50,179 nt of DNA, taken from contig PXUB01000012.1 of NCBI GenBank assembly GCA_003009755.1, forward strand, positions 6,770 through 56,948, read 5' to 3'. This DNA is from Thermoplasmatales archaeon SW_10_69_26. Its GTDB lineage: Archaea; Thermoplasmatota; SW-10-69-26. The position numbers and the translations under genes were made by a program. Each line of letters starts with the position of its first letter. Position 1 is the first letter of the stretch. A model generated the notes under the pieces. The model did no database searches and was not told where the DNA came from. It saw only the letters and a program-made list of their open reading frames with translations. This document shows positions 33,017 through 45,539 of this stretch, piece by piece.

Positions 33017-33600
33017 ATGACCCTGATCGGCACGTCGACGAACGTGCTGGCCTCCGGCATCGGCCAGGCGTTCGCGGGGATCGAGGCCTTCGACATGTTT
33101 TTCTTCACGAAGGTCGGCATCGTGGTGTTGCCGGTCGGTGAGCTGCACGCGTCCATCCGGTGGGACATCGTGTTCCTGCTGGCCGGCGTCATCCCCCCAC
33201 CGGCTTGGCCTTGGACCACACGGGAGCGGCTCAGGGCATCGCGACCTGGATCATCACGCAGACGATGGGCCGACCCCCACGGGCGATGCTGGGCATCTTC
33301 GACGCGCTGACGGTCGTGATGACCCAGATCCCCTCGAAGAACGCCAGCCTCGCCCTCGTGCTCCCGATCGTCGTCGACGGCCCAGCAGCTGTCCCTGAAC
33401 CCGTTCACGTTCGTGCTCGGCGTCACCTTCGCCGCCTCGATGGGGGTCCTCACCCCGATCGGCTACCAGTCGAACCTCATGGTGTACGGCCCGGCGAGCA
33501 CCGGTTCACCGACGTCTTCAAGGTCGGCCTGCCGCTGCTCGCCATCCTGGGCGTCGTCAACGCGTTCCTGCTGGACTGGTACTGGCCGCTGACCGGCTGA
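33017..33600 (+). pseudogene. Truncated, frameshifted SLC13-type anion transporter
   Basis: Joining frames restores the C-terminal part of an SLC13/DASS permease. The first frame gives TLIGTSTNVLASG and RWDIVFLLAGVIP. A second continues LALDHTGAAQGIATWI, then MTQIPSKNASLALVLPIV. A third gives LNPFTFVLGVTFAASMGVLTP, shown here as LNPFTFVLGVTFAAS and TPIGYQSNLMVYGP. The second frame then ends with RFTDVFKVGLPLLAILG and WYWPLTG. At least three frame changes are needed, and the N-terminal half of the family is missing. It lies just after superoxide dismutase. Either a true relic or poorly assembled sequence. Confidence 0.8.
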
Positions 33601-33663: not shown

Positions 33664-36177
33664 CTAGTGGGTCTCGAGGCCCGAGGCACTCGCATCCAGG
33701 AGCTCGATCGTGAATCGCGTGCCCTCGCCGACCTCGGTGTCCAGCTCGATCTTGGTCCCATGCCGTTCGGCGACCGTCGCGCAGATCGCCAACCCCAGGC
33801 CGGCGTGCTCTGAGTCCTCGGTGCCTCCCTCCAGCATCGCGGAGATCTGCTCACGCGTCTCGTCGGGGATGCCCGGACCGTCGTCGGCCACGCTGAACCG
33901 CCAGGTCGTCCCCGAGCGGTTCGCGGTGACCTGAACGTGAACCGGCTGGTCGGGATCCTTGTGCTCGATCGCGTTGACGACGAGGTTCTGCACGTACTGG
34001 CTGAGCATGGTGCGGTCCCCGTGCACGGTCGGCAGCTGCTCGCGACTCACCTCGACGTCCTCGTGCTGCAAGAGCAGTTCGACGTTCGACAGACCGTCCT
34101 CGACGACGCTGTCGAGGTCGACGGGTTCGAGCTCGGTATCGGCGTGGACCGCGCGGGTATAGTTACGGAGCGCATCGAGACGATCGGTCAGCCGGTCGGC
34201 TCCCGTCTTGACGATGTCGAAGAACTCCCGGGCATCGCCGTCCAGCTGGTCGCCTGCCTCCCGTTCCGTGAGATCGATGAAGGAACGGATCATCCGGATC
34301 GGTTCCTTCAGGTCGTGGCCGAGGACCGAGCCGAGGAAGGCGAGCCGACGGTGGAGGTCCTCGACCTTCCGCGGCTGTGTCCGATCCTCGACGGTGACCA
34401 GATGAACGCCCTCGTCGTGGGCCCCCGCGCTCAGGGTCCGCATCTGGCCCCACCTCAGCAACCCCTCCGGGGTTCGGAACTGGAGCATGGCATCGTCCTC
34501 GACCGCGGGCAGGCCCAGATCCTCGTCCACGAGCTGGCCGGGATCGCGGCCGAAGAACCGACGGGCCGCGGGGTTCGCCGCCAGGACCGTGCCCTCGTCG
34601 TCGAGGGCCAGGATCGGTGTGGGGACGCGCTGGACGAGATCGTCGATCCAGGCGTGACGGGCCTCGAGCTCGGGGTAGCGGGTGATCAGCTCCTCGATGA
34701 CGGTTCCCGTCTTCACGGCTCGTCCTCCCTCGAGGCTTCCTTGCAAGATCCCCCGGCCTTTCACCCGCGAGCCGAGGGCAAGCCCCTCGTCGCCGATCTC
34801 GATCTCGCGGACGGAGGGATCGTGGTCGCTGCCCCGCATCTTGAGGACGGTGAAGATGCGCTTGATCTCCTCCCCTGTCTCCAGGTACCGCAGGAGGAGG
34901 ATCGTGTCGGAGAGGGCGGACATGTGTCCCTTGTAGACGGAGACCGGAGGCTCGAAGACGGGTTCCATCATCCCGTACCAGGTGAGCAGCTCCTTGTCCT
35001 TGGTCAAGGCGTTGAGACCGATGAGGAACTCGCGGAAGCTGCGCTCTCCGGCGGTGTAGGCGAGCGAGGAGACGGTGTCGAGCACCAGGCGCTCGGGCTC
35101 GAAGGCCTCCACCTCGTCCTTGATGTCGAGAAGGTGTCCCCCCAGGCTCCGAGATTCGGGATACGTGGAGATCAGCCGAAGGAGCTCCCCCGTGTGGGGC
35201 GTCAGGTCGTGGCCGATCCCCGCCGCGTTCTCGAGCACTTGCTCGCGGCTCTCCTCGAACGTCAGGTACAGCGTCCGCTCGTTCTCCTCGACCCCTTCGT
35301 GGGCGAATTGGGTCATCATCAGCGTCATGCCGACGCCGGTCGCTCCCGAGATCAGGGTCGTGGATCCGCGGAACGGACCGCCCCCCAGCATCTCGTCCAG
35401 CCCCTCGGTTCCCGTGGATCCGCGAGAACTGAACCCGGCGTGGGTGAGCTTCGTGGCCGACAAGGGCAAAAGGATCGGGCCCTTCCCGGGTCGGATCGAG
35501 AGGGGGACCTCCCCCGCCTCGTGATCGCTGCCCCGGATCTTGAGCACCTCCAGGGTTCGGCGCCGGTTCTCCCCGTCGCTGCGGTTCCGCAGGACGATGA
35601 GCGCGTCGGCGACGAACTTCTCGACGCCCGGCCCGTGCAGCGAGCCTGGATCGGATTGCGTGGAGGCGTTGCTGGCGAGCATGGTGACGTTCTCCTCTCG
35701 AGCCACTTGGCTGAGAGACGCCATCGCGCGGCGCACCGCTTGGGGATCCCCGTAGCGCTCGAAGAGCACGTTCACGGCGTCGAGGAAGACCCTGTCGGCG
35801 TCCACCTGCTCGACGGCGTGCTTCGTGCGGGAGACCAGGCCCGCCAACTCGTAGTCGCCGATCGTCTGAGTCTTCGAGATCGTCTCCGGCCGGGCGTCGA
35901 CCAAGCAGAGATCGCCGCGGGCTCTAGCGCCGGGGAGATCCCAACCGAAGCCCGACAGGTGGCTCAGGAACGCCTCGGGGTCCTCCTCGAAGACGACGGC
36001 CACGCCCGGTTCACCGTCCTCGCACCCGGCGGCGAGGAACTGCCCGCCGAGCACCGTTTTCCCCGTGCCTGTCCCCCCGTGGACGAGCGTGATGCTTCGA
36101 GCCGGGATACCGCCCCGGGTCACCGTCTCGAGGCCTGCGATGCCGGTGGGGAGCCCCTCGGTCGGACCGTTGTTCAC
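33664..36177 (-). CDS. Double KaiC domain - PAS - histidine kinase fusion
   Basis: An 837-residue cytosolic protein. KaiC domain 1 (about 8-240) has Walker A GGTGTGKT (34-41), FEEDPE (63-68) and RVFLDAVN as Walker B. KaiC domain 2 (about 250-480) has FEESRE (307-312) and RLVLDTVS, but its Walker A reads GATGVGMT (278-285), with Met replacing the usual Lys. A PAS domain follows (about 508-600), then HisKA with the phospho-acceptor His621 in GHDLKEP, and an HATPase domain with NLVVNAIEH, DDGPGIP and GLGLAI. The start is GTG 36177, overlapping the kaiB-like stop in GTGA, so the two are coupled. No receiver-domain gene is nearby. It may be a one-protein clock or sensor output, which is inference. 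Confidence 0.9.
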   Translation of the reverse strand: MNNGPTEGLPTGIAGLETVTRGGIPARSITLVHGGTGTGKTVLGGQFLAAGCEDGEPGVAVVFEEDPEAFLSHLSGFGWDLPGARARGDLCLVDARPETISKTQTIGDYELAGLVSRTKHAVEQVDADRVFLDAVNVLFERYGDPQAVRRAMASLSQVAREENVTMLASNASTQSDPGSLHGPGVEKFVADALIVLRNRSDGENRRRTLEVLKIRGSDHEAGEVPLSIRPGKGPILLPLSATKLTHAGFSSRGSTGTEGLDEMLGGGPFRGSTTLISGATGVGMTLMMTQFAHEGVEENERTLYLTFEESREQVLENAAGIGHDLTPHTGELLRLISTYPESRSLGGHLLDIKDEVEAFEPERLVLDTVSSLAYTAGERSFREFLIGLNALTKDKELLTWYGMMEPVFEPPVSVYKGHMSALSDTILLLRYLETGEEIKRIFTVLKMRGSDHDPSVREIEIGDEGLALGSRVKGRGILQGSLEGGRAVKTGTVIEELITRYPELEARHAWIDDLVQRVPTPILALDDEGTVLAANPAARRFFGRDPGQLVDEDLGLPAVEDDAMLQFRTPEGLLRWGQMRTLSAGAHDEGVHLVTVEDRTQPRKVEDLHRRLAFLGSVLGHDLKEPIRMIRSFIDLTEREAGDQLDGDAREFFDIVKTGADRLTDRLDALRNYTRAVHADTELEPVDLDSVVEDGLSNVELLLQHEDVEVSREQLPTVHGDRTMLSQYVQNLVVNAIEHKDPDQPVHVQVTANRSGTTWRFSVADDGPGIPDETREQISAMLEGGTEDSEHAGLGLAICATVAERHGTKIELDTEVGEGTRFTIELLDASASGLETH

Positions 36178-36473
36178 GACGAGGCCCCCCTCGTCTCGCG
36201 GTCGAGAGGCGGCAGACCCAGCGCGCGGCGCACGACGCTCTCGTCGGTCAAGTCCCCGATCACCCGCACGGACGGGGAAGGCTCCTCCCGGATCAGGGCC
36301 GGGACGGCCAGGATCCGCGCCTCCTCTGCTCGTTCTGGCATTTCCAGGATGTCGATCACCTCGAGTGTTCCCTCGACCCCATCCGAGTCGAGCAGCGATC
36401 GCAGGGCCCTGATCGCCCTCGGACCCGGAGGATGGGCATCCGCCACGTAGAGGCTCAGACGAAGGGGTTCCAA
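36174..36473 (-). CDS. KaiB-like protein
   Basis: A 99-residue thioredoxin-like protein of KaiB length. The signature runs LSLYVADAHPPGPRAIRAL, then LEVIDILEMPERAEEARILA, here split as LEVIDILEMPE and AEEARILAVPALIRE, then PSVRVIGDLTDESVVRRAL. This matches the KaiB order of YVAG-like strand, VIDV, AEE-xx-ILAxPxL and VIGDL. KaiB binds KaiC and is one half of the cyanobacterial clock oscillator; archaeal versions are of unknown role. Translation starts at TTG 36473, supported by GAGAGGTGG four bases upstream. A TATA-like cgttaagc lies near 36515. Its stop overlaps the GTG of the KaiC-kinase gene. Confidence 0.88.
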   Translation of the reverse strand: MEPLRLSLYVADAHPPGPRAIRALRSLLDSDGVEGTLEVIDILEMPERAEEARILAVPALIREEPSPSVRVIGDLTDESVVRRALGLPPLDRETRGASS

Positions 36474-36477
36474 ACAG

Positions 36478-36486
36478 CCACCTCTC
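36478..36486 (-). promoter_or_regulatory. Shine-Dalgarno supporting the TTG start of the kaiB-like gene
   Basis: On the minus strand it reads gagaggtgg, four bases before TTG 36473. It is one of the few strong SD matches here and argues for a leadered mRNA of the kaiB/kaiC-kinase operon. The rest of 36487-36771 shows nothing else. Confidence 0.6.
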
Positions 36487-36771
36487 AGCTTCGAGAGCCA
36501 TGGCCGCCCGACGCTTAACGAAGGCCAAGAGGTCCCCCCCTCGCCTCAACGAGCGCTTGGCGGGGACCCGGTCGGACGAGCCGAGGAGGGGCCCTCGGCG
36601 GAGCCTGCGGCGTCCCGAGCGCGGTCGGCTGAGGCTCGAACGCATGGTCCGTCGCTGTCGGGGGGGAGATGGGGGGGCCAGCCTACGGTCAGCGCCCTTC
36701 CGATGCAGCGGGACGCCGTCAGGGCCTCGTCCAGACGGCCAGGCGAGGGAGAGCGTGAGGAGCCGAGGCCG

Positions 36772-43646: not shown

Positions 43647-43682
43647 ATGGGGTACAGGCGAACGTCACCCTCGGGTGACCGA

Positions 43683-45539
43683 TTGGCTCTGCTGCCCACG
43701 CTCGGATTGGCTGCGGTCGAGGGCGCCATCGTGGCGCTCGTCGGCCTGTTGCTGTTCCACGCCCACCGACGCGTAGGCATCATCCCCTTCATCGGGTTCT
43801 TCGCGCTGGTCGCGTTGCTCCTCCCGCTGACGGTCACCGACGCGAGCCTGGACCTGGCGGCACTGGGCACGGTCCCGCACGCGCAAGCCGCGCTGGTCCC
43901 CGTGCTCGTGTCCTTCGTCGTGCTCGTGCACCTCACGCGCGGCTGGCGGAACGCCCAGCTGGCGGCGCTCACGATCCTCGGCGCCGGCGGGTTCATCGGC
44001 CTGGCCTCCGTGCTCGAGACCTACCTGCCGATCATATTGGGCTCCTCGGCGGCGCCCTCGGAGGTGCTGGTGCCCGTCGCGGCCGGTGCCGCCGTGTGGG
44101 CGGCCGCCGGGCTGGCCTCGATCACGCTGGCCGGTATCGCCGAGTTCACGCGCAAGGTCCCGGCCCTGACCGGCCTGTTCCTCGTGACGTTCCTCGGCGT
44201 CGCCTTGGCCGGCACGATCCACCTGGCGTTCATGCGCGCCGGCTTCCCGTTGGGGAACGCGACCGGGTGGGCGCCCTTCGCGGGCCCGCTTTTGGCGGGC
44301 ATCCCGTCCGTCGTGATCTTGATCGGGTACGGCGCCAACCGCCTGTCCGGCATGTGGGAGGAGACCCGCCGGGCGCTGTTGTCCCGCGAGCCGCTGGGTA
44401 GCGACTCCCAGATCGAGAGGGCCCACGCCCTGCAGGGCGCCAAGCAGCAAGCCGAGGAGCAGACCCGCCGCGAGGTCGACGCCTACCGCCAGCTGATCGA
44501 GACCGACGACCGCGGCGCCTACGTCTGCAACCCCGAGGGGCGGATCACGTACGCCAACCAGGGCCTCAACCGCGTGCTCGAGCGCCCCGACGAGGAGCTG
44601 TCCGGCGAGAACATCCGTCACCTGATGGGCGACACCGACGAGCGCGGCCGCCCGCAGTTCGTCGACTACCCCGTCAAGCCCGGTCGCCATCGGGCGCGCG
44701 TGCGGCTACCGAACGGGCACCAGCGCTCGATCGAGGTCACCGTGCGCCCCACCGAGGACGGGAACCTCTACGGCCGCGTGCGCGACCGCACCGAGGACGT
44801 GCTGCGGCGCGAGCTGGAGGAGCAGAAGGAGCTGGCCGAGTTCTACGTCGACCTGTTGCGCCACGACATCGGCAACGACGTGACGACGCCGCTGAACTAC
44901 CTGGCCATGCTCGAGCACTCCGACAACCTCTCCGAGAAGGAGGAGCGCTACGTGCAGTCCAGCCGGGTGGCCGTCGAGAACATCGCCGATCTGCTGGACC
45001 GGGTGAACGTGCTGACCGGGCTGCAGGACGTGGATCCGGAACCGACTGACGCCGGCCGCATCATGGAGGACGTCGTCGAGCAGTTCCGCGAGAAGCACCC
45101 CGAGCAAGTGTCGATCGCGTGGGATCTGCCCGACGAACCCGTGTACGTCGCCGGGCTCCCGCTGCTCGAGACGGCGTTCATCAACCTCGTCGGCAACGCG
45201 ATCCGACACGCCGGCTCCGATGCCGAGGTCGCGTTGGGCGCCCGCCGCAAGGAGAACACCTGGGAGGTGGTCGTCGAGGACAACGGGCCCGGCATCCCCG
45301 ACGAGGACAAGGACGCGATCTTCGAGCGCGGCGACCGCGACGAAGCCAAGGGCGGCCAGGGCCTGGGCCTGTACATCGTGAAGACGATCGTGAGCGCGCT
45401 CGGCGGCAAGGTCTGGGTCGAGGATCGCATCGAGGGCAAGCCCGAGGCCGGCGCCAGCTTCCGCGTGCGCCTGCCGGCCACGAGCTCGCAGGCCGACCAG
45501 CTGGGCAGCCAGTCCAGCGTGCCGGTCCAGGACGAGTGA
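43683..45539 (+). CDS. Membrane-bound PAS histidine kinase
   Basis: A 618-residue sensor kinase from TTG 43683 (ATG 43647 lies 12 codons upstream but overlaps the TATA-like box). About seven membrane helices occupy residues 5-230. A coiled linker (AKQQAEEQTRREVDAY) leads to a PAS domain (ETDDRGAYVCNPEGRITYAN). The HisKA motif is LLRHDIGNDVTTP with His394, of the HDIGND type common in haloarchaea. HATPase motifs are NLVGNAIRHA, EDNGPGIPDED and GQGLGLYIVK. It would phosphorylate a partner regulator in response to a membrane or PAS signal; none is encoded in the window. Cytoplasmic kinase, signal unknown. Confidence 0.92.
   Translation: MALLPTLGLAAVEGAIVALVGLLLFHAHRRVGIIPFIGFFALVALLLPLTVTDASLDLAALGTVPHAQAALVPVLVSFVVLVHLTRGWRNAQLAALTILGAGGFIGLASVLETYLPIILGSSAAPSEVLVPVAAGAAVWAAAGLASITLAGIAEFTRKVPALTGLFLVTFLGVALAGTIHLAFMRAGFPLGNATGWAPFAGPLLAGIPSVVILIGYGANRLSGMWEETRRALLSREPLGSDSQIERAHALQGAKQQAEEQTRREVDAYRQLIETDDRGAYVCNPEGRITYANQGLNRVLERPDEELSGENIRHLMGDTDERGRPQFVDYPVKPGRHRARVRLPNGHQRSIEVTVRPTEDGNLYGRVRDRTEDVLRRELEEQKELAEFYVDLLRHDIGNDVTTPLNYLAMLEHSDNLSEKEERYVQSSRVAVENIADLLDRVNVLTGLQDVDPEPTDAGRIMEDVVEQFREKHPEQVSIAWDLPDEPVYVAGLPLLETAFINLVGNAIRHAGSDAEVALGARRKENTWEVVVEDNGPGIPDEDKDAIFERGDRDEAKGGQGLGLYIVKTIVSALGGKVWVEDRIEGKPEAGASFRVRLPATSSQADQLGSQSSVPVQDE

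Follow-up and report, generated by a model that had tools for sequence, protein, structure and literature searches.

A KaiB gene overlapping the gene for a KaiC-PAS-histidine kinase chain in a Thermoplasmatales archaeon

The window analyzed here, a stretch of 50,179 nucleotides from Thermoplasmatales archaeon SW_10_69_26, encodes a 99-residue KaiB directly followed by an 837-residue protein in which two KaiC domains (CI and CII), a PAS domain and a histidine kinase are joined on one chain (Table 1). The pair is real as first noted, with chance being no serious alternative, and the positions, the GTGA overlap and the domain order of a preliminary description, including HisKA with His621 and the HATPase domain, were all borne out. 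That description overlooked two losses in CII, namely the P-loop lysine and one phosphosite. We consider it probable that the locus encodes a timer of nucleotide state, or an energy sensor, of the KaiBC type, with the output kinase placed inside the KaiC chain. A more specific version, to which we give somewhat less than even credence, is that Ser/Thr autophosphorylation of the CII ring was given up and replaced by the fused histidine kinase, and that KaiB on CI gates His phosphorylation of the same chain; this would be an archaeal one-protein timer plus output, assembled from a bacterial-like KaiBC and an archaeal-type kinase.

Table 1. Features of the kai locus, in coordinates of the window and residues of the encoded proteins.
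Feature	Position	Strand	Evidence or remark
KaiB gene, 99 aa, TTG start	36174..36473	-	PF07689, PDB KaiB matches, AF2 model
Shine-Dalgarno-like GAGAGGTGG ahead of KaiB TTG	36478..36486	-	sequence
GTGA overlap, KaiB stop / KaiC-HK start	36174..36177	-	sequence
KaiC-KaiC-PAS-HisKA-HATPase fusion, 837 aa, GTG start	33664..36177	-	Pfam and NCBIfam domains
KaiC CI domain, residues about 7-240	35458..36159	-	Walker A GGTGTGKT (34-41), EE 64/65 intact
CI KaiB-binding loop segment TIGDYELAGLVSRTKHA, residues 105-121	35815..35865	-	alignment
KaiC CII domain, residues about 246-471	34765..35442	-	Pfam, alignment; catalytic EE 308/309 kept
CII Walker A GATGVGMT (278-285)	35323..35346	-	Met284 codon ATG 35326-35328, Lys position
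CII phosphosite pair	34915..34920	-	Ser420 kept (S431-type), Ala421 replaces Thr/Ser432
KaiC C-terminal tail GILQGS..TVIEELITRY, A-loop-like, between CII and PAS	34678..34758	-	compared with unfused KaiC tails
PAS core, residues 514-562	34492..34638	-	PF00989, 24.5 bits
HisKA / DHp, residues 618-676	34150..34326	-	PF00512, 26.0 bits, just under cut-off 26.9; phospho-acceptor His621
HATPase_c, residues 720-826	33700..34020	-	PF02518, 79.1 bits; N, G1, G2 boxes

In the ORF list, KaiB runs from a TTG at 36473 to a stop at 36174, and the GTG start of the fusion (36175-36177) shares bases with the KaiB stop TGA (36174-36176). A Shine-Dalgarno-like motif, GAGGGGGG, also precedes this GTG. As judged from the DNA, the gene overlap shows KaiB to be translationally coupled to the fusion. 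Stop/start overlaps of a few bases between KaiB and KaiC are also seen in bacterial kai operons, and are frequent in the non-cyanobacterial ones. The ORF caller proposed a 993-aa version of the fusion from an ATG at 36645; this was rejected, as such a start would put the KaiB region out of frame. The genome has one copy of KaiB and one double KaiC, besides which three weak KaiC-like matches were found.

Homology searches did not place the 99-residue protein outside KaiB, the family first proposed for it. Residues 8-85 of 99 matched PF07689 at 3.1e-18 (65.7 bits, cut-off 27), and a PDB sequence search returned KaiB chains with E values of about 1e-12. The protein fell below the NCBIfam cyanobacterial KaiB equivalog (52.0 versus 145.3) and is thus not an equivalog of that kind. 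Its AF2 model (pLDDT 87.5) shows the thioredoxin-like order and, of the KaiB states, only the thioredoxin-like one; it resembles both the fold-switched KaiB bound to CI (5jwr, 5jwo) and the KaiB of R. sphaeroides KaiBC (8fwj). Since AF2 frequently yields the thioredoxin-like KaiB state by default, the model shows predicted compatibility with the KaiC-bound fold only.

The fusion has two matches to PF06745 (KaiC; 282.5 bits), the best over residues 10-233 and the other over about 250-470, and the NCBIfam KaiC model NF006799 covered residues 8-483 with 439.2 bits, above its cut-off of 408. Its score against the cyanobacterial circ_KaiC equivalog stayed far below the cut-off (339.4 versus 546.25). 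Among solved structures, the best matches were KaiC chains over residues 7-474 and histidine kinases over residues 611-830. The fusion keeps the KaiB-contact loop of CI (GDYELAGL segment), which was present in sampled KaiB-associated KaiCs and gapped in the displayed KaiB-less KaiCs. In CI, too, the fusion departs from its relatives, at eight positions that at least 93% of them conserve.

A lysine at the CII Walker A position was present in 119 of 120 aligned double KaiCs, the fusion alone having Met, and was invariant in all 95 other KaiB-associated KaiCs. The phosphosite pair reads Ser-Ala, versus the usual Ser-Thr or Ser-Ser, and Ala at this site occurred also in 2 of those 95 proteins. CII autokinase activity is, on sequence grounds, doubtful in the fusion, and the signaling role of CII was probably taken over by the fused kinase; because the CII lysine is lost, the attached kinase is a plausible phosphorylation output. 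The loss of CII Trp331, considered as an extra sign of change, was dropped as Ile is common at that position. Unfused KaiC tails finish GIL.G.P...(R)...LF, and the native tail is thus retained before the PAS domain of the fusion.

In the kinase part, His621 is the histidine of an HDLKEP motif, at the phospho-acceptor position, and the kinase boxes are complete (N, NAIEH 735; G1, DDGPGIP 765; G2, GLGLAI 793). The AF2 model of the fusion was confident over KaiC and weak over PAS-HK, with a mean pLDDT of 68.8. The kinase bears KaiC and PAS and has no SasA-type N-terminal KaiB-like domain, KaiB being a gene of its own. No response regulator was found among the genes flanking the kai pair. A second histidine kinase (PAS, HATPase_c), positionally unrelated to the kai genes, is encoded on the forward strand at 43647-45539.

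The proposed mechanism begins with the KaiC halves, which would form a hexamer and so hold several PAS-HK tails near one another. Hydrolysis of ATP by CI, or its ADP state, would decide the binding of fold-switched KaiB, and CII would be chiefly a ring with a structural or regulatory role. Tail geometry would differ according to whether KaiB is bound, and would thereby set His621 autophosphorylation, the phosphate being passed to a putative response regulator. The fused kinase would in this manner replace both CII Ser/Thr autophosphorylation and a separate SasA-like kinase. As long as the oligomeric state is not established, dimeric kinases are difficult to reconcile with a KaiC ring of six-fold symmetry. 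Also against a timer are the HisKA score, slightly short of its Pfam threshold, and the fact that the fusion is known from one draft metagenome-assembled genome, so that selection on the fused protein has no support from conservation. Of the compact timing or energy-state switch originally suggested, the compact switch fits the CI residues, the KaiB loop and the KaiB model, and the timing stays conjectural.

Comparison with the cyanobacterial KaiABC-SasA-RpaA clock discloses a shared principle, in that a histidine kinase would read the state of KaiC. In that clock, KaiB and SasA compete for CI. The clock differs from the fusion in that it includes KaiA, that its CII has two phosphosites, and that SasA stands alone as a protein and bears a KaiB-like domain itself. 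Because KaiA, reported only from cyanobacteria (PMC5520375), is presumed absent and one phosphosite is left, an externally driven switch, of the hourglass or ATP/ADP type, is likelier here than a self-sustained oscillator; a self-sustained clock is unsupported. The KaiBC of R. sphaeroides, which works without KaiA, is an ATP/ADP-driven hourglass in which the state of KaiC travels over a long distance along a C-terminal extension (PMC10076222). Its extension is a dodecamer-making coiled coil and its CII an active kinase, whereas in the fusion the extension is PAS-HK and CII seems impaired.

The preliminary description compared the locus with SasA only, and missed published adjacent KaiC, KaiB and histidine kinase genes outside cyanobacteria (PMC3164672). 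In non-cyanobacterial kaiB-kaiC-PAS-HK operons (R. sphaeroides, Bradyrhizobium BRADO1478-1481, L037, L048, L257, L260), KaiB adjoins a double KaiC and PAS-HK belongs to the same operon, as here; however, KaiC and kinase are separate, CII has its Lys and two phosphosites, and the kinases fall in clades other than that of the fused one. Archaeal KaiC-KaiB-KaiB-PAS-HK clusters (L165 and L168-L184 of Halobacteriota, L133 of the archaeon's own phylum) likewise hold the three functions side by side, but KaiC comes first, KaiB is usually present twice, and the kinase has its own gene. The KaiCs of these clusters belong mostly to the SS-phosphosite group and have a long charged tail, unlike the fusion.

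Conservation of the pair in relatives, which the preliminary description had named as a test, proved to be partial: the searches turned up this fusion nowhere else and the class has no other such pair, whereas unfused KaiB, KaiC and PAS-HK keep their neighborhood in several bacterial phyla and in Halobacteriota. None of six classmates has KaiB, leaving the KaiB/fusion pair without a counterpart in the class, nor do these six share a conserved gene order around the kai locus. Across the phylum, KaiB scored above the cut-off in 2 of 341 genomes, the window's own and one (G297) whose locus L133 is unfused. Strong KaiBs were found in about 20 of 345 Halobacteriota genomes, nearly all within KaiC-KaiB(-KaiB)-HK clusters. 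With a strict cut-off (E<=1e-60) and two or three candidates scored per genome, KaiC was counted in 16 of 397 sampled genomes of Actinomycetota, 13 of 294 of Planctomycetota and 30 of 399 of Pseudomonadota. Many of the bacterial regions read contain KaiB-KaiC and a separate PAS-HK, with SpoIIE-KaiB instead in actinomycetes. Adjacent same-strand KaiB, KaiC and PAS-HK genes recur in Pseudomonadota, Planctomycetota and Halobacteriota, which makes joint action of the three probable in other organisms.

When every ORF of the collected loci was scanned with HMMs and direct searches were added, no second KaiC-HK fusion emerged; the searches covered samples, with Cyanobacteriota and Chloroflexota not sampled as phyla, and rare fusions may occur elsewhere. 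Two operons of bacteria, L257:4261-6846 and L249:1887-5309, have the PAS-HK downstream of KaiC in its frame, with one stop between them in the first and two in the second, an arrangement which shows that fusion is only a short step away. Several candidates were rejected. L208, at first seemingly a 1141-aa single frame, has KaiC and PAS-HK in one frame but parted by stops, and haloarchaeal plasmid matches spanning the full query were either separate adjacent genes or had KaiC regions absent from the PLSDB gene table. The 875-896-aa KaiCs of three loci (L050-L052) carry a solute-binding extra domain and no kinase.

The KaiC tree puts the fusion on a long branch in the clade of KaiB-associated KaiCs; it is not part of the archaeal KaiC-KaiB-KaiB group and adjoins the bacterial KaiB-KaiC group, with its exact place not resolved by the tree. 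The KaiBs most similar to that of the window are bacterial, with identities of about 41-49% for the best matches, and the protein also sits on a long branch, in a tree with too few columns for resolution. Having KaiB ahead of KaiC follows the bacterial gene order. The kinase, in contrast, was nearest in trees to kinases from its own class and from Halobacteriota, and an AU test rejected its grouping with either bacterial kai-operon kinase clade (p 0.0046 and 4e-7), these clades having been picked after the tree had been seen. By its sequence relationships, the kinase is archaeal-type and outside the bacterial kai-operon kinase clades. A purely native origin, hinted at by the first tree, was given up, its placement being open once halobacterial kinases were added. 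We infer an origin in which the archaeon gained a kaiBC pair of bacterial-like type that became joined to an archaeal-type PAS kinase.

The window is part of contig C15, in a genome of 2.8 Mb and 95% completeness; RIO1, class-II tRNA synthetase and mevalonate-decarboxylase-like genes lie on this contig. Five of six classmates carry a version of the next gene, HPS-RraA, with 57-59% identity, and so the contig truly belongs to the archaeon. The genes flanking the kai pair are metabolic (SOD, DUF389, HPS-RraA, PfkB, FMN oxidoreductase). As the neighbors are GC3-rich (about 0.9) and encode acidic products, a salt-adapted proteome is suggested; the fusion is similarly acidic (16.6% D+E, 9.8% K+R). 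Its GC3 is nearly at the high values of the genome, with no composition step at the junction (0.88 for the KaiC part versus 0.87 for the PAS-HK part). At 33138-33600 on the forward strand, translations of short overlapping ORFs resemble pieces of a broken SLC13/DASS-type transporter.

It seems unlikely, given these data, that CII is still an active autokinase in an otherwise identical module, with Met284 an assembly error or tolerated, Ser420 phosphorylated, and the locus a plain KaiB-KaiC-HK system on one chain. This alternative draws on the single-base nature of the Lys-to-Met change (AAG to ATG) in a draft assembly, on the retention of EE 308/309, K446, R448 and Ser420 in the alignment, and on a CII family match as good as that of CI, but the Thr432-type site is independently altered and every other sampled CII P-loop has the lysine. 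KaiB could also be co-transcribed yet not bind the fusion, which would then be a KaiC-regulated histidine kinase free of KaiB control. The best fold match of the KaiB model is 4kun, the thioredoxin-like KaiB of Legionella (Lpp1115), which is not known to engage KaiC, and KaiC beside a histidine kinase without KaiB is common in haloarchaea and Methanoperedens. We regard this as improbable, however, in view of the overlapping genes and of a CI KaiB-binding loop that is kept here and absent from the KaiB-less KaiCs displayed.

General decay is possible for KaiC and KaiB because both have long branches and the eight conserved CI positions are changed. The stronger proposal, a horizontally acquired and decaying kai module that became fused when a stop was lost by chance and that does little, is very improbable: all 837 codons are open, the kinase boxes and CI site are intact, and the protein matches its genome in GC3 and its neighbors in acidity, even if KaiB is missing in six of six classmates, the module is known from one genome, and the long branches are accompanied by the P-loop and phosphosite losses. 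Least credible is an assembly chimera or contamination joining a bacterial kai fragment to an archaeal kinase. The bacterial affinity of KaiB and KaiC next to an archaeal-type kinase would agree with it, and the single unbroken frame, the natural KaiC tail, the even GC3 and the conserved HPS-RraA neighbor all oppose it.

KaiC beside histidine kinases, and kaiB-kaiC-HK contexts, have been published (PMC3164672; also PMC3899966), and archaeal KaiBs are rare (PMC5520375). Archaeal KaiC-REC fusions and inactivated iKaiC domains are described in PMC5847659, citing Makarova 2017; like the fusion, they join KaiC-type ATPase domains, some inactive, to two-component parts. The main text of that archaeal KaiC-family census has no mention of a KaiC-HK fusion or of KaiB, and a search over the main texts of a limited set of papers found no published KaiC-HK fusion with KaiB. 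What is known, then, is the adjacency of KaiB, KaiC and PAS-HK; what appears to be new is the one-chain KaiC-PAS-HK beside KaiB, the CII losses and the archaeal-type kinase. Outside cyanobacteria, kinases adjoin kaiC but have no known docking domain (PMC5520375, PMC3164672), and by fusion logic the KaiC-PAS-HK chain argues that such neighboring kinases act directly on KaiC. It also offers one protein for the joint readout of ATPase state, KaiB binding and His phosphorylation, and, through its lost CII lysine, a natural experiment on whether CI rings and KaiB can make up a switch without a CII kinase.

Other KaiC neighborhoods and architectures appeared among the loci. On three haloarchaeal plasmids (L297, L298, L299), a gvpD-like double KaiC lies beside PAS histidine kinase genes without KaiB, and in L297 and L298 HalX also adjoins these genes, forming a recurrent KaiC/two-component neighborhood. 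In Armatimonadota (L050:5989-8637, L051:5989-8613, L052:1729-4416), the double KaiC is fused to an extracellular solute-binding family domain (PF01547/PF13416), a surprising companion for an ATPase of the cytosol. Directly upstream of KaiC, Actinomycetes (L042:4823-5992, L047:4939-5973, L040:312-1337) encode a SpoIIE-type phosphatase that carries KaiB as its C-terminal domain, a Ser/Thr phosphatase apparently linked to KaiC via KaiB. One Halobacteriota genome (G545) encodes a 676-aa KaiB-PAS-PAS-HK protein (L173:6574-8601), a SasA-like architecture in an archaeon that contrasts with the report of SasA homologues outside cyanobacteria without a KaiB-like domain (PMC5520375).
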